A DNA stretch of 64,000 nucleotides from Aurantiochytrium sp. KH105 (lineage: Eukaryota; Sar; Bigyra; Thraustochytrida; Thraustochytriidae): the NCBI GenBank assembly GCA_003116975.1, contig BGKB01000031.1, positions 434,001-498,000 on the forward strand. Direction: 5' to 3'. The position numbers and the translations under genes were made by a program. The notes below the pieces were generated by a model, which did not search any database, was not told the DNA's origin, and saw nothing but the letters and a program-made list of their open reading frames with translations. The stretch's first letter is position 1. Every line of letters starts with the position of its first letter. Below are positions 1 through 20,367 of this stretch, one piece after another.

Positions 1-2248
1 TGGACGCTGTGGCGCGGAGAGCGTCCTCTTCTGGATTCTTGGGACTTTCTGGCTCGTCGCTATCGGATGAACCCGAGTCGGAATCTTCAGAGCCAGACCC
101 CGACCCTGTGGCGCTTGCAGCGCGACCGCGTAGCTGCCGACGTCTCTCTCGACGACGCTCTTTTCGCTTGTTTGCGCGCGCTTCACGCTCTTGCTTACGA
201 CGTCGCAGCTGCACGGCAGCTAGATCAGCCGCGGCCTTGTAATCTTCTTGAGCGCGCGCAAAATCGCCGCATCGACGCCGAATAAACGCGCGAAAGGCAA
301 TCAAGCCCTCATCTGTCTTATCGAGAGCAATCGCTTCGTCGAGCTCTCGAATTGCGGCATGATCGCGATGTTCGTTGGAAAAAATAAGGGCGCGATTGAA
401 TCGAGCGCTTGTGCTCTTGGGGTCAATGCGCAAGCATTGTGTAAAGTCCTGCATTGCTGATTCGTCGTCCCCAAGCATGTGATAGGCAACGCCTCGGCAC
501 AGGTGAGCTGCTGAGTAGCGTTTTTCGGCCAGTGTGGCGCGCGTATAGAGCCGAATGGCCCCTGGGAGGTCCCCCTTGAGTTTGAGCTCGTAGCCCTTTT
601 GGAGAAACCGCTGTCCGCTGGTCGCGCTTTTCGACCTGGGGACATGCTCGCGAAATTCACTTTGCAAAATATCGCGAGCTCTGACGTGCGGCACGCTTCC
701 ATACTCTTTTTCAATGTTTTCTAGACGCTTCTTTTCCCATGGAAGCTGAATATGCGACACCTGACCGCGAAAATTCACCAATAGCGGCAGGGCGCCTTCC
801 AGACGGGTTTTCTTTTGCGCCATGCCGGCAATCACTGAGATGACCAGCTTTGCGTCTGAACTATCGAGAGATGCGCGCAGCGCAGTCCTCGCACGGGGCC
901 TTGAGCTCGATTTTGCCTGTTGCGTGTCACTTGAACCTTCTCTTGTTCCCTCGCGTCCAGGGGACCCTTCGTTTACGCTTTGGATCGCACGTTGAACAAA
1001 GGTCGTTCTTTGTTTTGGCTTTGCTGGTTTGCCGCTGTAGCGACGGACACCTTTGCGATGACCTCGGACGCCAGGATCGCGCGTGTGCACGGCAAAATTA
1101 GATTCCAGTCGCCGCAGCTCACTTGCACGCTCGACGCGGACCCGTGCTTGGTGTGCTGCCTTCGTGCGCTTCAATGCAAGCCCAAATTTACTGCCGGCTT
1201 TACTGCGGCCGTCGACGCCTTGCGTGTCCACACTCGATACCGCTCGTGGAGTCTTGGTGGGCATTCCGCTGACAACAAAGCCGCCGACAGACTTGCGGCC
1301 TTCGTGTTTATGAGATTCGAGCATGAGCTGTCGCGTTTGCTTCGTGATATAGTCTGGATCGTTAAAGTCAACCATGCGCTTGAACTCTTGCGCCGCGCTG
1401 TGGAAGCGCTTCATCAGATCGCGCAGACGTCTGTCCAGAGGCTCGCGCTTCACAGGTTTCACCATATATGCGCTGGCACCGAGTTCGATGGCGCGCGCAA
1501 CGAGCTCACTCGTGTTTTCACGTTTATTCATGAAAGACATGGACATTTTCAGAGACCTGAGCGAGCTATATGGATTGTCCACTGACGACATTGGGGAACC
1601 GACCTCCATGTCCGGAGACTCTTCGGGACAGAGCTCGCTCAGATCGCAGGATTCTGCGGAAAGAGTCAGAAGCACAGGCATTTTGACCGGCCCCACCGCT
1701 TCAAGAAATCGAAGAGTCTCGTATCCGGGTCCGCGCAGACCGAGCACGAGGACGTCAAAGTTTGCGCGGCGTTCTTGGAAAACGCGAAGGGCCTGTTCGG
1801 GCTCAGAGACGGACAAGACGGAGAATTGGAGGCTTTCGAGCGCCTCAACGGTATGCTTGCTTTCGTATTCGTCTTCATCGAAGACGAGCACGAGTCTTTC
1901 TCGTGCATTCGAAGCAGATGCGTACCTGTCAATCTGGTTGCAGTGCAGTTGATCCATCGATACGCTGCGCTGTGCACTCTCAGCTTTTGATCCTCGGTCG
2001 CCCCGCTCTCTTGCTTCGTTTTCGCTAGTGCAATCAAGGCCATCTTGCTCGACCCTAGCGTCGACTTCGCGAGGGAATGGCGCTGACGTCTGTGCAGTCG
2101 CCTCGGCGCTGTCGTCATTATCTTCGAGCTCGCCGCCACTGTTGGCAAAGATGAGATGCTTTCTCCGTCGCTCCCAGTCCTGCTGTAGCGTTGCCGACGA
2201 GGAGGTCTTTTGCAGCAGACCTTTGGGCAGCGTCGAGGACGACGCCAT
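1..2248 (-). CDS. Pseudo-receiver plus TPR protein, partial (C-terminus off window)
   Basis: The frame is open from an ATG at 2248 to the window edge (749 complete codons, no stop), so the C-terminus is missing. Residues about 117-285 look like a response-regulator receiver domain. They hold an acidic pair (FDEDE, Asp124-Asp126), a hydrophobic strand (FDVLVLGLRGPG), a Ser/Thr strand (MPVLLTLS) and the conserved lysine in YMVKPVK (Lys264). The phosphoacceptor position that should be Asp is Gly170, so phosphotransfer is unlikely; this is a pseudo-receiver. About 55 low-complexity residues are inserted before the last strand. Residues about 540-690 contain three TPR-like helical pairs (for example AIRLYTRATLAEKRYSAAHL and AMQDFTQCLRIDPKS). 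A basic coil and an acidic Ser/Asp tail follow. No CCT motif or histidine kinase is visible. The role is unknown; protein-protein scaffolding is an inference. Confidence 0.8.
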   Translation of the reverse strand, partial: MASSSTLPKGLLQKTSSSATLQQDWERRRKHLIFANSGGELEDNDDSAEATAQTSAPFPREVDARVEQDGLDCTSENEARERGDRGSKAESAQRSVSMDQLHCNQIDRYASASNARERLVLVFDEDEYESKHTVEALESLQFSVLSVSEPEQALRVFQERRANFDVLVLGLRGPGYETLRFLEAVGPVKMPVLLTLSAESCDLSELCPEESPDMEVGSPMSSVDNPYSSLRSLKMSMSFMNKRENTSELVARAIELGASAYMVKPVKREPLDRRLRDLMKRFHSAAQEFKRMVDFNDPDYITKQTRQLMLESHKHEGRKSVGGFVVSGMPTKTPRAVSSVDTQGVDGRSKAGSKFGLALKRTKAAHQARVRVERASELRRLESNFAVHTRDPGVRGHRKGVRRYSGKPAKPKQRTTFVQRAIQSVNEGSPGREGTREGSSDTQQAKSSSRPRARTALRASLDSSDAKLVISVIAGMAQKKTRLEGALPLLVNFRGQVSHIQLPWEKKRLENIEKEYGSVPHVRARDILQSEFREHVPRSKSATSGQRFLQKGYELKLKGDLPGAIRLYTRATLAEKRYSAAHLCRGVAYHMLGDDESAMQDFTQCLRIDPKSTSARFNRALIFSNEHRDHAAIRELDEAIALDKTDEGLIAFRAFIRRRCGDFARAQEDYKAAADLAAVQLRRRKQEREARANKRKERRRERRRQLRGRAASATGSGSGSEDSDSGSSDSDEPESPKNPEEDALRATAS

Positions 2249-8055: not shown

Positions 8056-9287
8056 CCTTCCTCCCGCGCTCGCTCGCTCCCTCGCGCACCCCGGCTCGCG
8101 AGACCTCTTCCGCGCCCGTCCCTCCCGCTCCGCCGCGCCCTCTCCCGCTCCACCGCCGCGCGCGCTCGTGCCCGCCGGCCTGGCGTCCTCCGCGCCGCGC
8201 TCCTTGCGCTTTTGCGCGTCATGCCCGCCTCATGACGCCTGCCAGGGAAGAAAGGCGCGAATGCACTGCGATGAAATGCAATGCAATGCTCTCTCTACAC
8301 CACTGCAATGCACCAGCAGTGCACCATTGCACAACGCAATGCAGTCTGGACGAGGCGATGCAAGGCAAGGCGATGCAAGCAAGGCAAGGCAAGGCAAGGC
8401 AAGGCAAGGCTCGCACGCGGTGAAGACAATCAATCCAACATGGAGCGTAGTGCACGCAGTGCGCGCAGAGCAGGGCAGAGCAGAGCAGAGCATGCGGTGC
8501 TCGGGCAAGAGCGACCGAGCTAGTTGCAACCAGCGCACTGCAAGTGTACCTTCCGCCGGATGTCCACTTGCGCAGGCCCGAGGCGCACTTGCGGCCGCGA
8601 AAAGCTATCACGAACACACGAGCACGCAGCAGCAGCCAGCCAGGCGGCGCTGGTTTCTTCTGTGCCATGTCGCACGCATCCTTGCGCGAAGCGTTGTAGC
8701 AAATCATTGATGGTAATCATCACTAGCGGCAATCATGATGATGTGAGTGCAAGCAAGGCAATGGACCTGGATTAAAACGACGGTGTACGGGTGCAGGGCG
8801 CATGCCGGCAACCTTCTCTGGCTCAATTAGGCTAGTCACTGTTGTATGCGATTGTATGCAAGCAAGGCGAAGCAAGGCAAATAAATCATCACCATTCTTT
8901 CAGCGGGAGCGTGGCTCCGAGGACCAGCAACAGCAGGCAAAATCGGAACTGTAGCAGCAGCAGCAGCAGCGGCTGCGCTCTGGCTACACGAGACGGAGCG
9001 CAGCCGCAGCCGTATCGTGCTGGCAGGCCCTCGGCAAGGCGCCACCGTCAGTAGCAGCGCAGCAGCGGCGGCGGGCCCAGCCAGTGCCGTCCAAAGCGCA
9101 AGTCGAGTTGTTGTACATTCAGACACAAAGTTCACGGCTCCGAGCAACTCGCGCGAGCAGGCGCGGGCGCGCAAACGACGTCGCGAACTGGCACGAAGAG
9201 CAAGCGCGAGCGATAGCGACGAACACGAAACGCTTGCTCTTGCATTTAATCGTGGGGCGTGTCGCGAATTGCACTGTACAAAGAGCA
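8056..9287. other. Divergent intergenic region rich in AATGC/AAGGC words
   Basis: The gap separates the divergent dPGM and MOCS1A genes. From about 8265 to 8410 and again near 8740-8885 it is built from repeated GCAATGCA, TGCA and CAAGGCAAGG words. CAG triplets lie near 8950-8975. The frame of MOCS1A is open upstream to 9084 but without a convincing protein. I see no other gene. Confidence 0.5.
8361..8410. repeat. AAGGC pentamer tandem repeat
   Basis: CAAGGCAAGGCGATGCAAGC is followed by six perfect AAGGC units, about 300 bp upstream of the dPGM start. It lies inside a wider GCAATGC/CAAGGC-rich block. Confidence 0.85.
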
Positions 9288-10502
9288 ATGTCGAGAGCAC
9301 TCGCAGCCGCAGCAGCATGCGCGAGCGCGCGAGCACGACCAGACGCTGTCTGGCGTCTCGGCTTGAGGCAGGTTCGTCGGCCCAGACAACTCGTGCAAAG
9401 CCATCGAACAGGTCCATGGCACAGTGCGCAGCGAGCGTGGGCGTCGACAGCAACAATGACGAAAACCAAGGTTGATATGCACGAATCACGCGCAGCAACA
9501 CCGACGCCCCTGGTGGACTCGTTCGGGCGCGTTCACAACTACCTGCGCATCTCTCTTACGGAACGATGTAACCTGCGTTGCACATACTGCATGCCGGAGA
9601 AAGGTGTGGACCTGACTGCAGATCAAGAACTGTTGACGGATGACGAAATTGTGCGTATCGCGTCGGCATTTGTACAGCGTGGAGTGGACAAGGTTAGACT
9701 CACCGGTGGGGAACCATTGCTCCGACCGAGCATTCTGGATCTATGCGAGAGGCTGCGAGGGCTCGGTATTCGAGATTTGGCCATGACCACGAATGGAATT
9801 CTTTTGAAGCGAAAATTAGACCCTCTTGTGGAACGAGGCGTCAATTTGCTCAATATCAGCCTCGACACCTTGGTGCCAGCCAAATTCGAACTCATCACGC
9901 GGCGCCGAGGCTTTGAACGTGTCTTGGAAAGCATCAAACGGGCAACAAGTCTGCCGGGGCTCGATCAGGTTAAGGTGAATTGCGTCATGAAACGAGGCGT
10001 TAATGACGACGAGCTTTTGGACTTTGTGGAGCTCACGCGTGATTTGGACGTTGAGGTGCGATTTATCGAGTTCATGCCTTTTGATCAGAATAAATGGAAG
10101 GCGAAGGCAATTCTCCCATATTATGAGATGGTGGATATGATTCGCGAGCGCTGGCCGACTTTTGCGCGAACCCCTCGTCTCGATGGTGCCAACACTGTCT
10201 CGAAGACGTGGCAGGTGCCGGGTTTCGTGGGTCGCGTCGGCTTCATTTCGTCCATGACGGACCAATTTTGTGGAACTTGTAATCGCATGCGCCTTACTGC
10301 AGACGGTTCGATGAAGGCGTGTCTTTTTGGCTCCGAGGAGATCTCTCTGCGCGATGAGTTGCGGGCGGGCGCTTCGGACGAGGCATTGCTCGGTTCGATT
10401 GAATCTATTTTGGGTCGCAAGCACGCCAAGCTTGGTGGCCATGATAGCCCGGAAAGTATTTCGAAGGGTAGCAACCGGCCTATGGTGAAGATTGGCGGCT
10501 AA
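9288..10502 (+). CDS. MOCS1A: GTP 3',8-cyclase (MoaA/MOCS1A/CNX2), molybdenum cofactor step 1
   Basis: This radical-SAM enzyme converts GTP to 3',8-cH2GTP, the first step of molybdenum cofactor synthesis, usually in mitochondria. The radical-SAM cluster motif is ERCNLRCTYCMPEKG (CxxxCxxC). RLTGGEPLLRP follows, then the second cluster CGTCNRM...C with CxxC and 13 residues to the third Cys. The chain ends in Gly-Gly, as active MOCS1A proteins do. I chose the ATG at 9288 (MSRALAAAAACASARARP), whose Ala/Arg-rich start fits a mitochondrial presequence. An internal Met (MTKTKVDMHES) is an alternative. Length is 404 residues. No MoaC/MOCS1B part is fused to it. Confidence 0.93.
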   Translation: MSRALAAAAACASARARPDAVWRLGLRQVRRPRQLVQSHRTGPWHSAQRAWASTATMTKTKVDMHESRAATPTPLVDSFGRVHNYLRISLTERCNLRCTYCMPEKGVDLTADQELLTDDEIVRIASAFVQRGVDKVRLTGGEPLLRPSILDLCERLRGLGIRDLAMTTNGILLKRKLDPLVERGVNLLNISLDTLVPAKFELITRRRGFERVLESIKRATSLPGLDQVKVNCVMKRGVNDDELLDFVELTRDLDVEVRFIEFMPFDQNKWKAKAILPYYEMVDMIRERWPTFARTPRLDGANTVSKTWQVPGFVGRVGFISSMTDQFCGTCNRMRLTADGSMKACLFGSEEISLRDELRAGASDEALLGSIESILGRKHAKLGGHDSPESISKGSNRPMVKIGG

Positions 10503-10893: not shown

Positions 10894-13047
10894 TCATGAT
10901 TTGAGCTTGCGCGTAATCTTCAGCACCGAGGCGTTGCCCCTCTCTACAGCCGCAGCCGTGCGCTCGAGCTGCTGGTTTTGCGTCTCGAGCTCAGAAGACA
11001 TACGGCCAGCGATGTGGAGATTTTCGCTAAAGTTGGAAGCCGCTTCGTCCTCAAGACTGAAATCGGTCCCATTCTCTTGCAGCGCACGCCGGCGCTCCTC
11101 GTGCCGCTGTTTTTCTTGACGCAAAAGCTCATCGCGCTTGTCGGCAACCTCGCGGCGAAGAATCTGATCTTGCGTGGCAGCATCGACGTTTTGCAGCTGG
11201 CCACGCCGCCACGTTACGAAATTTCGGAGGGCGCCAGATAAATTCGCGGCGCGATCGATGCGCTGCGTGTACATTGCCGCGTCACCAACAAGCGCTGCGT
11301 TGCGCTCCGCACGAGAAATTTGCTCCCCTTGTTCATTTGCGCGAGCGTACGATTCGCTGAGAATTGTGTTGGTTGTCACAGAGCTGCGATAAATACCATT
11401 CCAGAGCTGTTTGGTCTCGCGATCGGCGGGAGCGATCGCAGAATCATTGTCCATGGCCTCTTGAACTGCGCGGGCCCGCGCCAGTTTCTCGGCGGCAGCC
11501 TGATGCGCCGGCGAGGTGCCAGGCTTGCCCGTAAGATAGCGTACCCAGAGTCGCCGTCGCACAACACAGCCACGTTGCGCCTCGGGAAACCAGTTGTTGG
11601 CGGTTGCCTTTGATGCAAAGTCCCAGCCGCTCAAGTCCGTATTGGCCCTATCAACCACGAGATCCCACTTTGGCGACGCCCAGGACCAAACGACGTCAAA
11701 GGCAATTTCACGCTCGTGCACTGCCTCGATTTCTGCCTCTTCTTCGGGTGTGAGATTATTGCTGTCAGCACGAGCCTCGGCAAGAAGCTGCAGGCGGGCC
11801 TCAGCGGCGCTGGTATCCTTCTCGGGGTGCGCCCCACGTACAGGTTCGCCAAACTCGTCCGTCCACATGCGCTCGGTCTGGATCCATTTCCGCATCATGT
11901 ACGACCACTGCTGGACTTCAAAGGCGTATACCTGAAGAGTGAACTCCCCCGTGCGCTGCTTGCGCGCCGAGAGCAAGGCCTTGATGCGACGCGTCTCCGC
12001 GTTGATGGATCTTCGCTTGACAGCCGCGACACCCTTGCCAGCGACCATGCCCACGACACCGCCTGCAGCAGCGCCAATAACGATGCCCACGGGCCCGCCA
12101 AGAATACCGACAAGGCCTCCCACCGTGGCGGTGCCAAACGTGGCTTTGGCGGCGCCTGTGCTAGCCTGACGGCGGCGCGCACGGCTCAGCTCGTGCACGC
12201 CCTCCATGGTACGCGCGACGGAGTCGTCTGTGTTTTCTTCGAGCCTGTTCACGTCGTCCGTCTGGACCTCGAGGAGAGAACCCACTTCGGTGGCCATTTC
12301 TTCCACGAGCTGGGCGCTACGAGCCACCTCGCGCAGCGCGCTCTGCTCGCTCTGGGTGGTGCTTTGTTCGTCGTACTCGCGGAGAGCGTACGTTTGCTGC
12401 TGCTCCTGCTGGAGAAGCAGTTGTTGTTGCGAGTTGTTGTTGTTGTTGTTGCCGATACCATTGTATGGAGCGCCGCGGTAAGAAGAGGCTTTGCGCTGAG
12501 CATATGCCGCTTTGCGGGTCTCAAGTTGGGCGCGCGTGGCCTCGCGATCCGCGCTTTGCGCCCCGGAGGCCTCTGCTTCAGATTTTGCGGCAGATGCCTC
12601 GACAAGGCGTTGCTGTTTTCTGAGCTCGGCGAGCACCAGCTTGGCGCGTTTGACGCTTTGGTCTGTGGCTCGCAAGCTCGCCGCGACCTGAAGCCTTCGA
12701 TCGTAGTCGCTTTTGAGCTTTTTCGCCTTGAAGGCCTTGCTTCCGGGCGTCGCGGCCCCTGCCTTGACGCGGGCGAGAAAATCGGCATCATCTGCACGCA
12801 GTTTGTTCATCATTTCCTCGCACTTTTTCACTTGCTGGTGCAGCTGGTCTGCGTCCGCGCCGAGCTTGCGCGGGTCGCGGCCCTGCGCTGCGCCTTGCTG
12901 TCGCTGCACGAGCGCTGCGAGAGCGCGTCCCGCGCCCTCATTTTGTTGACAGAGCGTCTGCAGGTCCACCAAGCGACGCTGGGCGTCCTCCACCACGAAG
13001 CTGCCTGCGCCCGCGCCCGCGCCCGCGCCCGCGCCTGCGCTCGCCAT
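10894..13047 (-). CDS. Three-SNARE-motif protein: Qa + glycine-rich membrane segment + DysF + Qb + Qc, 717 aa
   Basis: SNAREs drive membrane fusion by forming a four-helix bundle of Qa, Qb, Qc and R helices. Residues about 15-150 resemble a syntaxin N-terminal helical region. Residues about 226-290 fit a Qa motif, with zero-layer Gln262 in LLEVQTDDVNRLEENTDDSV. Residues 304-344 are a glycine-zipper hydrophobic stretch (GGLVGILGGPVGIVIGAAAG, then VVGMVAGKG), similar in style to the syntaxin-17 hairpin. Residues about 374-404 and 451-505 look like the two parts of a DysF domain (RMWTDEFGEP; WSWASPKWDLVVD; TDLSGWDF; CVVRRRLWVRYL). Residues about 548-608 fit a SNAP-25-type Qb motif with Gln573 (ANEQGEQISRAERN). 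Residues about 670-716 fit a Qc motif with Gln690 (MSSELETQNQQLERT). The ATG at 13047 precedes the helical domain; the open frame upstream starts 78 codons earlier and is probably 5'UTR. Domain calls are by eye. Confidence 0.8.
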   Translation of the reverse strand: MASAGAGAGAGAGAGSFVVEDAQRRLVDLQTLCQQNEGAGRALAALVQRQQGAAQGRDPRKLGADADQLHQQVKKCEEMMNKLRADDADFLARVKAGAATPGSKAFKAKKLKSDYDRRLQVAASLRATDQSVKRAKLVLAELRKQQRLVEASAAKSEAEASGAQSADREATRAQLETRKAAYAQRKASSYRGAPYNGIGNNNNNNSQQQLLLQQEQQQTYALREYDEQSTTQSEQSALREVARSAQLVEEMATEVGSLLEVQTDDVNRLEENTDDSVARTMEGVHELSRARRRQASTGAAKATFGTATVGGLVGILGGPVGIVIGAAAGGVVGMVAGKGVAAVKRRSINAETRRIKALLSARKQRTGEFTLQVYAFEVQQWSYMMRKWIQTERMWTDEFGEPVRGAHPEKDTSAAEARLQLLAEARADSNNLTPEEEAEIEAVHEREIAFDVVWSWASPKWDLVVDRANTDLSGWDFASKATANNWFPEAQRGCVVRRRLWVRYLTGKPGTSPAHQAAAEKLARARAVQEAMDNDSAIAPADRETKQLWNGIYRSSVTTNTILSESYARANEQGEQISRAERNAALVGDAAMYTQRIDRAANLSGALRNFVTWRRGQLQNVDAATQDQILRREVADKRDELLRQEKQRHEERRRALQENGTDFSLEDEAASNFSENLHIAGRMSSELETQNQQLERTAAAVERGNASVLKITRKLKS

Positions 13048-13734
13048 AGCTCCGCGCGCCGCGTCGGGGAGCTGGCGTCCTGCTGGCGGCTGCGCTGGCC
13101 GCGGCAAGTTCTTCTTTTGCCTTTGTTCTTCGATGACGTCCGCTTGCTCTGACAACGATGTGAGACTCACTACATGAAGGGCGATCGTATTGATCGAGGT
13201 CGCATTATTTGGCAAGCCACGAAAAAGGACGCAAGACCGCCCGCCATCATGGCAGCTAGGCCTACCACGGCGTGCATGCACAGCAGCACTCTCTCTTCAC
13301 TGCTGGCAAGCCAGACGTCGAATCGGTCTTGCTAACTTTAAAAGCAAATGGCGCATGATATGATGCGCTGGATAGATAGAACGCTGCGGCGTGAGACATG
13401 CTGGACTGGACAGATTTGCCCAAAATGAAAGCAGCTCTGGCGCGAAGAGTTGCCGGAGAGCAAGCATCATTAGCCAATGCGGAGGCTTGGAGGCCTTCAG
13501 CCTCTTATACTGTACTTCCGTGCCTTTACGCTTCGTGCAGTAGGCCGTTATCGTATCCACTACAGTGGACCTTTTCGCCCTCCTCCTCACCCCTACCCCA
13601 CGTGCATACAGCTGCACTCCACTTCACACATCAATGTCCTGCTCCAGCCAGTGCTCCTGGCCGCCCAGCCTCGAATCGGTCTCCATCGTGTCCGCGCCCT
13701 AATAAGCCAGGCCCAAGCTGGTGCTCTAAAAGAG

Positions 13735-15201: not shown

Positions 15202-18081
15202 TCAAATATTATCGTACTGATGGCGCGGACCGCGGTTGTCGCCTCGGCTGCGGAAGCAGCAGCAGCAGCAACGACACCAACGGCAAGTCTCGGCCAGACA
15301 TGCTGGTGGATGCGCCACGCAAAAGACCACAAAGGCCATGAAGATACCAAAGAATGCGCCGCCTGCAGCACTCTTCTGCACATTCGGATCTTGCACCGAT
15401 TTGCCCACATAGTCCTCGTACGGGGATAGATCGAACCAGGGCTGCTCTTTGTCGTCCTCATCATCATCCCCGTCCAAGTCTTCGCCTTGAATCGTCGATG
15501 ACCCATCTTCAGCCTCGGGTGGCCACGGATAAAACTCTTGCTCTTCTGGCGGACACTCGAGATCGTGATCGTCAAGGCAGCGGTTCAGGCAGGTTTCCGT
15601 CGGAAAGGTCAACTGCGAGTAGCCGTCCTCGAGCTCGACCTTGGCACAGTGAAAGACATCCGAAAATTCCACAATAGCTGGCTTGTCCTCAATGGTCTTC
15701 CTCACCGAGTACATGCGTGCCTTTTCGGGAACATCCCGAAAGAGCATGGTTGATTCGTGCCCCTCATCCGCCTCGACGATGCGAAGCTTGGGCTTGTAAT
15801 GAGCAAGAGCCCAAGAAATGGTGTCGCCAATACGCATCGCAAAGGTCTGCATGGGAGAACGCTTGACGATCATGGTGAGCGTACCCGCGACCTCAAGCTT
15901 GCCGAGGAAAACTGCCGGATTTTCAATCTCCTCGGGATCAGGCTGCACAGTCATGGTTGCATCGGGCCCGATAAAGGTGTAACAGCTGACGACTACACCA
16001 GCGTTGACGTCAAGAACGCCAGCGGCGAGCTCGAGACGACGATCGTGCGAGAGGTTGACGCACTGCAGTCCGGCAGTCCTCTCCAGCACAACTCGAGAGC
16101 CGGAGTCCATTTCAAGGCCACGGGACTGCGAAGAGAACACAAGCGTCGAAGCTTCGCTCACAACGAGGTGACCCTGGCGCAGGTCCAGAACGCCATCGAT
16201 TCGAATGCGGTATGTCGGGGTCTCGTCGTCGTCGTCGTCTGAAACGGATCCAGCTGGACCGCGTTTCGTACGCAAGGTGGCGCCCTGCTCAACTTGCACA
16301 TTGGGCAGCGCGCAATTTGCCCCGACAGTCACGACTGCGTCCTCGCCCTCAATCACCACAAGGCCCTGCGGGGAGAACACCCAAGCTGCCGAGGCATCCT
16401 CCTTCTCACAGATATTTGCGGAACGAGTGAGTCGAAGTACTTGGTCCGGGAGAAAGGTGTATGCGGTGACGCTCCACGCAGAGTCGTACTCGGGCTCAAG
16501 CACAGTCTTATTTCCAAAGCGCTCCGCATCGTACGAGATGATAAAGAGACCATCCGCGGTTTTCGTACCCTCGGGGGGCTGCGTGTTGCGCATCTCGGGC
16601 GTTGGAGACGGAACGTGCGATTCCGGGACTGAGGACGTCGTTGTTGTCGTTGCTGCCACCGTGGGCTCTGGCGTAGGTGCCGGCACGGGATTTGGCAAAT
16701 TGAACCCGTTCTTCTGGGCCACGGCGCAGGATCCGCAGCACTCGGCGCGAGAGCTGCGCGTGCCCGGCTCATTGTCGCGTGTCTGGTCACAAATGGAGCG
16801 CGCAATGCCCAAACGATTCTTGCCGTGGTCAAAGACATAGTCGAATCCACCCATGGTAAGAGCGCCGAGAACAAAGGATCCGCGCGCATCTCGAAGAATA
16901 CCCACGCAGTAAGCACCCCGCGAGCGAAAAAAGTAGGCACCTGGGGGGATGCAAATACGCGCGCTTGTGCCTTCGTAGGCTTCAAACTCGAGTTCGAGCG
17001 TCGGGAACTTTTCCAGCCACGGATCAAGGTCTTCCGAGTAGTCTTCGCCCTCTGGAGGCGCATAGCACATGATCGAGTCCCTTCGATCATCCGGATGTGC
17101 ACTCGTCGGATTAGCGGTTCCGGGACAGTTTCCATCCTTGGCGCAAAAAGTTTTGAACGAATTGGAAAGGGCGTCGGCGGTGTGAGAGTCGACATAAGTA
17201 AACGTCGTGCCGCTATCGACAATGGGTTTCTTCAAGCTCTGGCCCAGCTGCACCGCTTCACCCTCAACGTAGAACTTTTGGACTCCAACCTTGTAGAATC
17301 CCACCGAGGACAGCGGGATCCACTGAATGGGCTCCAGGTGTCGCGTCTCATCGTAACCTCCAACACCGAGCACGCCCGTACGAGAGGCAAGGCACATGGA
17401 AAAGAGGTCGTCTTCAAGTCTATGCGCTTGGCGCAAGCTTCCTATGAGCGTGTGCGAGTTGCCGCCAAACATGCCAATGATGCCATCGGCAAACTGGTGT
17501 TTGAACGGGGTGGCATACGAGCTGCAGCAGCCAAAGCTGTGCACGATGCCTTCCGTGGCCACGTCACACGCCTTGCCAAGACACATGAGCGCTTCAACGT
17601 TCTTGCCGCTATTGCATGAGCCTTCGCTGTAACACTGCTTGTAGTTTGACAGGTACTTGGCGCCGTTGGACTGTGACGGGTCAAAATGGTTGTGGTCGCC
17701 GCAGTTGCACCCTGCGCACGGGACGGCGATGGTGCTCGAGCCGGTGTCGACGATCACACTAAAGACATCATCTTCGTTGGGCCCGATATGCAGCCAGGAC
17801 CAGTAAACGCCGTCCTTTTCGCGCGAGATCTGCGCGAGTTCCTTGAACTTTTTCTCCGTGTCGTCCAGACCACGGAGCAACCTGCGGTCGTCGCTACGGG
17901 GCCGCCGGTCGAGGGGCACCTCGAGTCGTCTGCGGCCGTTCGCATCCTCAAGAATGCGCGCTCGCCTTCCGTCGCTGTCGGCTGCAAAGGCCGGTACGGC
18001 CGTCGTTGCCGTTGCCAGCACAGCCAGCGCAGCCAGTACGGCCAGCACGGCCAGCACGGCCGTCGTAGACGCTCCGCGCAT
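15202..18081 (-). CDS. Type I membrane pepsin-family (A1) aspartic protease with large ectodomain, 959 aa
   Basis: The protein has a signal peptide (MRGASTTAVLAVLAVLAALA) and then a pepsin-like domain. The two catalytic motifs are DTGSS (SVIVDTGSSTIAVPC, residue about 111) and DSGTT (PIVDSGTTFTYVD, residue about 289). Many Cys pairs (CAGCNCGDHNHFDPSQS) recall the membrane-anchored family of plants and oomycetes. A Pro/Thr stalk (PVPAPTPEPTVAATTTTTSS) leads to an ectodomain of about 350 residues that I cannot assign. One transmembrane helix (FFGIFMAFVVFCVA) and a cysteine-rich tail (CRWCRCCCCCFRSR) that may be palmitoylated close the chain. The open frame extends to a TTG at 18210, but the ATG at 18081 gives the signal peptide. 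It probably acts in the secretory/endolysosomal system or at the surface (inference). Confidence 0.88.
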   Translation of the reverse strand: MRGASTTAVLAVLAVLAALAVLATATTAVPAFAADSDGRRARILEDANGRRRLEVPLDRRPRSDDRRLLRGLDDTEKKFKELAQISREKDGVYWSWLHIGPNEDDVFSVIVDTGSSTIAVPCAGCNCGDHNHFDPSQSNGAKYLSNYKQCYSEGSCNSGKNVEALMCLGKACDVATEGIVHSFGCCSSYATPFKHQFADGIIGMFGGNSHTLIGSLRQAHRLEDDLFSMCLASRTGVLGVGGYDETRHLEPIQWIPLSSVGFYKVGVQKFYVEGEAVQLGQSLKKPIVDSGTTFTYVDSHTADALSNSFKTFCAKDGNCPGTANPTSAHPDDRRDSIMCYAPPEGEDYSEDLDPWLEKFPTLELEFEAYEGTSARICIPPGAYFFRSRGAYCVGILRDARGSFVLGALTMGGFDYVFDHGKNRLGIARSICDQTRDNEPGTRSSRAECCGSCAVAQKNGFNLPNPVPAPTPEPTVAATTTTTSSVPESHVPSPTPEMRNTQPPEGTKTADGLFIISYDAERFGNKTVLEPEYDSAWSVTAYTFLPDQVLRLTRSANICEKEDASAAWVFSPQGLVVIEGEDAVVTVGANCALPNVQVEQGATLRTKRGPAGSVSDDDDDETPTYRIRIDGVLDLRQGHLVVSEASTLVFSSQSRGLEMDSGSRVVLERTAGLQCVNLSHDRRLELAAGVLDVNAGVVVSCYTFIGPDATMTVQPDPEEIENPAVFLGKLEVAGTLTMIVKRSPMQTFAMRIGDTISWALAHYKPKLRIVEADEGHESTMLFRDVPEKARMYSVRKTIEDKPAIVEFSDVFHCAKVELEDGYSQLTFPTETCLNRCLDDHDLECPPEEQEFYPWPPEAEDGSSTIQGEDLDGDDDEDDKEQPWFDLSPYEDYVGKSVQDPNVQKSAAGGAFFGIFMAFVVFCVAHPPACLAETCRWCRCCCCCFRSRGDNRGPRHQYDNI

Positions 18082-20367
18082 CTGCTCCTCGCAGTCGCGT
18101 CGCTGCCACGTCGCTGCAGCTTGTGTCGAGCCGACTTCTATGTTTGTTTGCCTCTGGCTCGTCGCTTTGGCTACGCGCTTTGCTAGTACAACTGGATCCT
18201 TTCCCTGCAAACGAACGAACGAACGAGCTTGGCGAGGGCCCCGGTGAGGAGCTCGGCGACGAGATTTGGCTTGGCGACGAGGTTTGACAAGGACCTTGGC
18301 AACCGAGATTGGTAACGAGCGTCTCTTTGGGTTGTCAACATGCTAGGAGGCGGTCGACCGCGTCGAGAGAGGGCATCAAAATTTCGAATTTGCTCGCGAC
18401 GACTTTGAGGGAAAACATCCAGAAGCGGAATGGGGCTTGCTTGCGTTACGCAGAAAAGAAATGTTCGAGTCAAAATTCTCTTTGTTCGGTCGCATGCTCC
18501 TCAAGGCGCTTGAGGACAGCAGCTTCGGTGTTGAATTACATCGTGAAATCTGTCGTAACATGTGCCTGCCTCTCAAGTTGCTTGTGAGAATTAAGTGTAA
18601 ATCGCGCGGAGCAGAGGTAGGCCACCGCGAGCAAAAGATCCTCTTCAGCTTGCTTCTGGAGACACTTTGCTCACAGTCTTAGCAAAGAAAGAAGCTGCTA
18701 TTTTTCATTTTTTTTTCTGCTTCTCTAATGACAGCCTGTGGTAAAAGCACGGATCATTGATAATAATATGGAAAGTCGGGCTTGCAAACGCCGCTGCGAC
18801 GGCGACGACGATGGCGGCAGCAGCTCCAACATCTGTCAGTTCCGGATGTAAGAGACTCGCTCGCCGATGTATCGAAGTGTTTCCTGGACTGGCCCGCATG
18901 CGATGCAATGTTCTTTGATCCTTTCGTATACTCTCGATCATTTGTTCGTCTCTCAAAAAGGAACAAGCAGTCCCTTTCTTCATCAACCATCGGTGGAAGG
19001 GGAGGGGTGGGGGGGGGGGGGGGCGGGCAAGAGCACTCTTCCGCACTGCGTAACCAAGAAAACCTACATCGCTGATACTTGGATGTGCTTGTCCGGCGCG
19101 CGCCGATGGAGCAAGTATTTCTTTCCCAGTGCTGGTTCTCAAGAATCCTTCTGGCGAAAATACACATCGTTATAACACAGTCAGCCGCCACTGTGCAATG
19201 TGGTCTGCTGTATCACAGTGGAATGGTGAAAAAACTTCATTGTCCAAGGTCATCATAACTTGGCGAGAAGTCCGTGCCCGAGGCTGGAAAACGCAGCAAG
19301 GCAGCGCAGGGCGGGGTCGGAGACCCTCCTACCGCACATTACGCGCAGCATGGCTTGAAAGACGGCATTCGATGACGGGGGCACACGGCGAATCTGCGTC
19401 CAAGTCAAGGAATACACCAAAGTTGAGACACCGGGAAAACTCAACTGAATCGACGAGGAAGCAAGCAAGACTGACTCGGGGTCCCTGATAGATATAATAA
19501 TTAGCGGACAATGGGTTCTTGAAAACTCATTGAGTACCCCCCCCCCTCGAGAGATTGTATAAATAATAGGGTGGTGAAGCAGGAGAAGTGGCTGTGGTTG
19601 GTGGCAAGCGAGAAAAAGGGAAATGAGACGGCCTGCCAATGAATAGACAAGGTAGTAGGTTCCGTAAGAGTAAAACGAAAGAAAGAAAGATAGTCGCTCT
19701 TGTTTGATTTCATTTTTGATTTTGTGGGTTGATCGAAGTGAGTTTGAGAAAGAAGTGGAGGGTGATTGACGCATGTTGAAGAGGAGGAGCCGAGCTGCGA
19801 GCTAATGCGAACCAAAGGAGCAAGAGAGCGAAAGGATAAACGTGATCGAACGATGTACACAAATCATCCCGGTCGCGCTCACAGATGCAGGGCCCGCATC
19901 GGCTCTCGACAGGACCAGGGTCAAAGTACACGGAGTCCGTAAGTAGTGAACACAGGCAGGCAGGCAGGCAGGGAGAGCTGCAAGCAATGCAAAGCAAATG
20001 TGAGGAAAGAGAAAAGAAAGAAAGAAAGAAAGAAAAAGGGCAAAAGCTCGCTCGTACGCAGCGCAAAGAGATTCACGCGCCACAAAGGGCGCAGTCAGGC
20101 TGGCGAACTATGAACCAAAGAGAAAGAGAAAGGAAAACACGTCCGTTTGTCCATCCATCCGTTCATCTCGTTCGGTAAGTTGAGAAAAGAAGAGAAGAGG
20201 AGTTGGATCGAGATAATCAAGAAAGTCGTTCCCTGACTTTCTCTTAACGTTCCCTGACTGTCATAATCTTTTCTCTTTCTCTTGTTCTTCCTTTCCTTCC
20301 CTCTGTTCTCCTTTGTATGATATGCCCTGAAAGCAAAAGGTCATTAAGCTGTGTGTGTGTTGTGTGT
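18082..20367. other. Long intergenic region, no supported gene
   Basis: This gap of 2.3 kb is AT-richer than the coding parts. It holds a 15-base G run (19009-19023), a C run near 19541, AGGC units near 19950-19970 and a GAAA tract near 20010-20035. Short open frames exist (for example about 18461-18682 on +), but none shows a domain or a convincing start. A short non-coding RNA or small exons cannot be excluded by eye. Confidence 0.45.
19009..19023. repeat. Poly-G run
   Basis: Fifteen consecutive G on the + strand, a likely site of sequencing-length error. Confidence 0.9.

Follow-up and report, generated by a model that had tools for sequence, protein, structure and literature searches.

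In membrane fusion the Q-SNARE motifs are known to be contributed by two or three separate proteins, so that assembly of the acceptor complex is a regulated step. A gene on the minus strand (10894..13047) of the window, that is, the whole stretch of 64,000 nucleotides of Aurantiochytrium sp. KH105 DNA analysed here, raises the question of whether a single polypeptide carries Qa, Qb and Qc motifs together. An earlier note, made from the letters of this DNA, had read the gene as the fusion of a syntaxin with a SNAP-25-type protein, the two being separated by a glycine zipper and a DysF domain. That reading is now supported by tests of profile, register, conservation and fold, and the architecture Qa - zipper - DysF - Qb - Qc in one chain is very probably correct. 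No SNARE known to us so far has three motif classes in one polypeptide. The known Qbc-SNAREs of the SNAP-25, SNAP29 and SNAP33 types have Qb followed by Qc with a linker, as the protein described here probably does, and we know of none that is fused to a Qa motif. A SNARE phylogeny (PMC6143360) states that, among the SNARE families, Qbc alone has dual motifs. No description of a natural Qa-Qbc fusion was found in the open-licence literature, among the matches listed, in titles and abstract openings.

Reading frame, second allele and relatives

Translation of 10894-13047 on the minus strand, to which all coordinates of the gene given below refer, reproduced the motifs and residue numbers of the earlier note. 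The open reading frame is intronless and comprises 717 residues plus the stop, in the order Qa motif, glycine zipper, DysF domain, Qb motif and Qc motif. The first in-frame ATG is at 13047, and the listed open reading frame begins upstream, at a GTG at 13281. Its neighbours are a gene for a molybdenum cofactor synthesis radical SAM protein of the MoaA type (9084-10502, plus strand) and a gene for a protein with an aspartyl protease domain and a long C-terminal extension (15205-18132, minus strand).

A second allele is present in the same 76-Mb assembly, in which SNARE genes occur mostly in pairs. Between the two alleles there are 39 synonymous and 9 non-synonymous codon changes and two short length differences, and Q262, Q573 and Q690, the three zero-layer glutamines discussed below, are kept in both.

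With residues 225-717 as query, a protein search gave seven relatives, with 45-77% identity and 99-100% coverage of this span. A profile search, in which scoring was confined to the 7,996 candidates with the largest number of shared words, repeated six of the seven and added none. Orthologues in other thraustochytrids had been proposed as a check, and one relative with the same span (P0005) is indeed from the thraustochytrid Mucochytrium quahogii, its sequence being found also in MMETSP and EukProt. Another is an MMETSP transcript, and another, on a contig of 3,311 bases, is labelled Durusdinium trenchii, a dinoflagellate, a label that may reflect a contaminant. The N-terminus is absent from relative P0002. 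The earlier note had named transcripts showing two separate genes as an outcome that would speak against it; the relatives share the layout, one of them being a transcript, which argues against two separate genes. Two of the relatives carry the database label 't-SNARE coiled-coil homology domain-containing protein', so that a t-SNARE label is already in the databases, and we found no description of the three-motif architecture.

When the 717-residue protein is aligned with its seven relatives, none of the eight departs from glutamine at Q262, Q573 or Q690. Mean pairwise identity is 49-75% in the SNARE motifs (Qa 59%, Qb 58%, Qc 49%), the zipper, the basic stretch that follows it and both halves of the DysF domain. 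It is lower elsewhere: 43% in the insert inside the DysF domain, 31% in the N-terminal bundle and 18-25% in the three linkers.

Three SNARE motifs

Pfam and NCBIfam scans of the 717-residue protein placed neither a SNARE nor a DysF domain above cut-off. Matches to the SNARE motifs had been expected from profile searches, and this expectation was borne out by the profile-profile scores given below and not by Pfam, whose SNARE profile PF05739 gave 16.2 bits for the 717-residue protein, under the cut-off of 26.8. In the whole-genome search the gene reached 21.3 bits, still under this cut-off, which is a database threshold rather than a biological feature. At E up to 1 the Pfam SNARE profile matched five of the eight members, with a best E of 0.005. 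Weak Pfam and NCBIfam matches to JHD, DUF456, C19orf12, DUF1269 and glycine-zipper/OmpA profiles were put down to helical or zipper composition. Because the standard profiles were insufficient, segments of the family were compared profile-profile (hhalign) with reference SNARE motif sets, in which the STX17 and SNAP29 letters were partly checked against records. Since the probabilities given by hhalign itself are <10% for all short SNARE segments, we relied on scores, E-values and shuffles.

The Qa motif occupies residues 228-296 (12160..12366), and the codon of its zero-layer glutamine, Gln262, lies at 12262..12264. Among the reference SNARE classes this segment matched Qa best, with a score of 33.9 that was reached by none of 200 free column shuffles (maximum 18.9) and none of 200 heptad-keeping shuffles (maximum 20.8), and Gln262 aligned with the zero-layer glutamine of STX17. 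The segment around Gln690 (residues 662-716, 10900..11064; codon of Gln690 at 10978..10980) matched the Qc class of SNAP-25-type proteins best, with a score of 36.2, again above all shuffles (maxima 16.2 free and 22.6 heptad-keeping; 0/200 each), and Gln690 is in register with the zero-layer glutamine of the SNAP-25 Qc motif. In position-matrix scans Q262 was the top Qa window and Q690 the top Qc window in all eight members, the latter with a margin of only 0.2 in P0007. An alignment of SNAP-25, SNAP-23 and SNAP-29 matched the family profile at Qc alone (27 columns, probability 33.9), with no match at Qb. The earlier assignments of Qa at Gln262 and Qc at Gln690 are therefore upheld by class, score, register and invariance.

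The third motif, of Qb type, spans residues 545-611 (11215..11415), with the codon of Gln573 at 11329..11331 in register with Q53 of SNAP-25, and its class is weaker than those of the other two. Its best score was to SNAP-25-type Qb (20.6), followed by Qa (19.7) and other Qb (16.4). Free column shuffles did not reach 20.6 (maximum 17.6, 0/200), and one of 200 heptad-keeping shuffles did (maximum 24.3). With a pooled Qb matrix, Q573 was the top window in one of the eight members and was not above shuffles in the 717-residue protein; in six of the eight the top window fell on the Qc site. Among PDB sequences the family profile had weak matches at two motifs: the Qb segment matched 5buz_C, a 'SNAP receptor-like protein' (E 0.063), and the Qa segment matched syntaxin-1A (E 0.48). 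Of the earlier Qb reading at Gln573, the SNARE-like character, the invariance in eight of eight members and Qb as best class all stood, whereas the margin over Qa was thin and the matrix scan spoke against it.

In the aligned ranges Q262, Q573 and Q690 each pair with the glutamine that forms the zero layer in the reference motifs. Hydropathy of the core layers peaks at the predicted register in all three motifs (Qa 2.31, Qb 1.28, Qc 2.05), compared with at most 0.71, 0.88 and 1.08, respectively, at shifts of 1 to 3. Taken together, the profile, register, shuffle and scan results make the Qa and Qc motif assignments secure as sequence assignments, and the motif at Q573 is SNARE-type and probably of the Qb class. 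Between the boundaries used, the Qb-Qc linker is 40-51 residues long and lacks cysteine in all eight members. The linker of SNAP29, in the sequence used here, likewise has no cysteine.

Glycine-zipper anchor, DysF domain and N-terminal bundle

The glycine-zipper stretch that had been noticed past the Qa motif was confirmed as a segment of 36 residues (302-337, 12037..12144) without D, E, K, R, N, Q or H, which we predict to form a membrane hairpin. Its length is 36 residues in seven of the eight members and 40 in the remaining one. It is followed by a basic stretch (residues 341-366, 11950..12027) with a net charge of +8; the charge is +7 to +9 in all eight members, and residues 346-366 have a mean pairwise identity of 75%.

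In architecture the front half comes closest to syntaxin 17 (STX17), which the earlier note did not name. The layout of STX17, consisting of a Qa motif, a glycine-rich anchor and then a basic stretch, is described in PMC11152571, and the 717-residue protein shares these three features. STX17 also has a helical N-terminal bundle, to which the 717-residue protein has a possible counterpart by model only. In contrast, STX17 itself stops shortly past the hairpin, whereas the present protein has about 370 more residues, comprising DysF, Qb and Qc. Compared with eight vertebrate STX17 sequences, the family profile gave a probability of 96.5 (E 7e-10), with an alignment through the SNARE motif and the zipper. 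Against human STX17, the SNARE motif plus zipper scored 42.7, above 200 shuffles that kept the composition of both parts (maximum 33.8, none reaching the score), and the zipper alone scored 31.7 against the STX17 hairpin (maximum 27.7, 0/200). When the genome was searched in six frames with mammalian STX17, the top matches were the gene (E 7.0e-6) and its second allele (E 8.2e-6), and the match after them had an E of 0.19; this exon-wise search found no separate STX17-like protein in the genome. Among the 120 of 476 STX17 matches listed, those with organism names were vertebrates.

The Qa motif alone, however, ranked STX17 10th of 14 references, with a score of 19.7, compared with 31.7 for the syntaxin-7-like protein of the same genome (L030), 31.6 for STX16 and 22.9 for STX1A. 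Identification of the Qa motif itself with STX17 was dropped on this ranking, and for the same reason we call the protein STX17-like in architecture, judged from sequence, and not an STX17 orthologue. At the zipper, the family profile also gave a weak match to SlyB among PDB sequences (E 0.45).

The split DysF domain that had been placed before the Qb/Qc pair (residues 365-510, 11518..11955) was borne out by structure comparison: for residues 362-717, the first 11 rows were all dysferlin, myoferlin or TECPR1. SNARE structures were absent from the best 50 rows of this comparison, for which single helices are a poor test. The fold is common to these three proteins, and a helical insert at about residues 414-449 sets the present domain apart. 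Among PDB sequences, the family profile matched dysferlin and, weakly, TECPR1 (E 0.81). Residues W454, W456, W461, W475, R497 and R503 are invariant in all eight members, and position 499 is R or K. For the DysF domain of TECPR1, four stacking tryptophans and four stacking arginines are named in PMC10476172. Its W154 is an exposed tryptophan that binds sphingomyelin. By profile alignment, counterparts exist for all four tryptophans and three of the four arginines, i.e. seven of eight positions, the exception being R167, which corresponds to Leu505. The counterpart of W154 is Arg492, which is invariant in the eight members, so that sphingomyelin sensing of the TECPR1 kind is not supported and was dropped.

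At the N-terminus, residues 19-150 (12598..12993) form a helical bundle in a low-confidence model, which is Habc-like by fold only. Confidence in the whole-chain model is low (pTM 0.35), and the model is uninformative about a SNARE bundle; structure comparison of the whole model was informative for the N-terminal bundle alone.

Possible mechanism, alternatives and other SNAREs

From the architecture, which is the part seen in sequence or fold, we infer topology, function and site. It is fairly probable that the gene encodes a single-chain Qabc t-SNARE, in which an STX17-like hairpin Qa, a DysF domain and a SNAP29-like Qbc are joined, which is conserved across labyrinthulomycetes, and for which an R-SNARE is the sole further partner. 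That this hairpin-anchored t-SNARE is completed by an R-SNARE and acts, most likely, where autophagosomes fuse with the lysosome or vacuole is a shade less probable and is still the reading that we prefer. The zipper would insert as a hairpin, and the rest of the chain, including DysF, Qb and Qc, would then be cytosolic. The spacer of 200 residues that holds the DysF domain would allow the helices of Qb and Qc to turn back and lie alongside that of Qa, and one molecule would thereby be a three-Q acceptor, whose bundle an R-SNARE on the opposite membrane would complete, driving fusion. The DysF domain may be an added module that binds membrane or a partner. Autophagosome-lysosome (or vacuole) fusion is favoured as the site because STX17, SNAP29 and VAMP7 or VAMP8 act there in mammals (PMC6422071), and the protein joins STX17-like and SNAP29-like halves. 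The same site is suggested by the STX17-like anchor and by a Qb-Qc linker that resembles that of SNAP29 in lacking cysteine; the site is probably autophagosomes or endolysosomes, by analogy.

If this is true, the protein would be the first known SNARE with three motif classes in a single polypeptide. Such a natural three-Q protein would remove the acceptor-assembly step and would offer a ready-made system for asking whether acceptor assembly limits fusion, and the gene fusion would suggest that STX17-like Qa and SNAP29-like Qbc belong together. The DysF domain, the function of which is mostly unknown, would gain a place within the fusion machinery itself.

A Qabc-SNARE could instead serve a lineage-specific compartment, such as the ectoplasmic net/bothrosome, lipid droplets, peroxisomes or the contractile vacuole, rather than autophagosomes. 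We consider this unlikely, although it is the strongest of the alternatives. The named relatives are one labyrinthulomycete and one dinoflagellate label that is possibly a contaminant, the profile search of 7,996 scored candidates gave no further relative, and the Qa motif taken alone shows no specificity for STX17, all of which would fit such a compartment; on the other hand, the glycine zipper is followed by a basic tail in the same order as in STX17, and no other gene of the genome matched STX17 as well in the search described above.

The other SNAREs of the genome bear on a second alternative. At E 0.001 or better there were 14 matches to Pfam SNARE, 11 to V-SNARE_C and 11 to synaptobrevin genome-wide, and at E 5 there were 43 to Pfam SNARE. 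Reading the set by eye, we take it to include syntaxins of the syntaxin 16, plasma-membrane, syntaxin 5, syntaxin 7 and syntaxin 18 types, together with Qb types, Qc types and several R-SNAREs. R-SNAREs and ATG8 are both present in the genome, in keeping with the preferred reading. A separate protein (L062; 829-2505, plus strand, contig C238 of the same genome) has the order Qb-PH-Qc, both SNARE motifs having been read by eye, with a PH domain (PF15409, E 3.2e-8) in the Qb-Qc linker, a layout unfamiliar to us. It resembles the 717-residue protein in its Qbc-type pair within one chain, and differs in the PH domain and in that no Qa motif, hairpin or DysF domain is visible in its letters. On its discovery, the idea that the fusion replaces the sole Qbc of the genome was dropped. 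Since L062 exists, the Qa half could be independent of the Qb and Qc joined to it. The protein might then be a regulatory or inhibitory SNARE whose Qa pairs with L062, while degenerate fused Qb and Qc motifs hold Qa closed or compete with L062. The thin Qb class score and the possibility that L062 provides Qb and Qc would suit this role, but Qb (58%) and Qc (49%) show roughly the same degree of conservation as Qa (59%), with their glutamines kept in eight of eight members, which speaks for a bundle-forming role. We consider regulation somewhat less likely than a lineage-specific compartment.

Pairing between molecules, with Qb and Qc of one chain joining Qa of another in domain-swapped oligomers or in tethering across two membranes, would be permitted by the long spacers (residues 346-545 and 612-662) and is nevertheless quite improbable, as the effective concentration within one chain should be far higher. 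Least probable of all is a chance heptad coiled coil or a product of prediction or assembly error, suggested by the sub-threshold Pfam SNARE score of the 717-residue protein: the shuffle tests and zero-layer register make chance unlikely, and the joining of two genes is already refuted by the seven relatives that span residues 225-717, including the MMETSP transcript and P0005 (MMETSP and EukProt), and by the second allele.

Three further observations concern the SNARE and ATG8 genes of this genome. The two alleles of a syntaxin-5-like Qa-SNARE (L007 and L008; match 1501-1653, minus strand) both have, by eye, a serine where the zero-layer glutamine is expected. An ATG8-type domain (L071, C37:52055-52384; 36.2 bits), with a second copy on C269, is enclosed by a frame that stays open for 888 residues and is possibly part of an ATG8 fusion protein. 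Another open frame, of 1,061 residues, has an R-SNARE motif close to its end (L025, C26:179933-180088), and the protein is perhaps tomosyn/Sro7-like.
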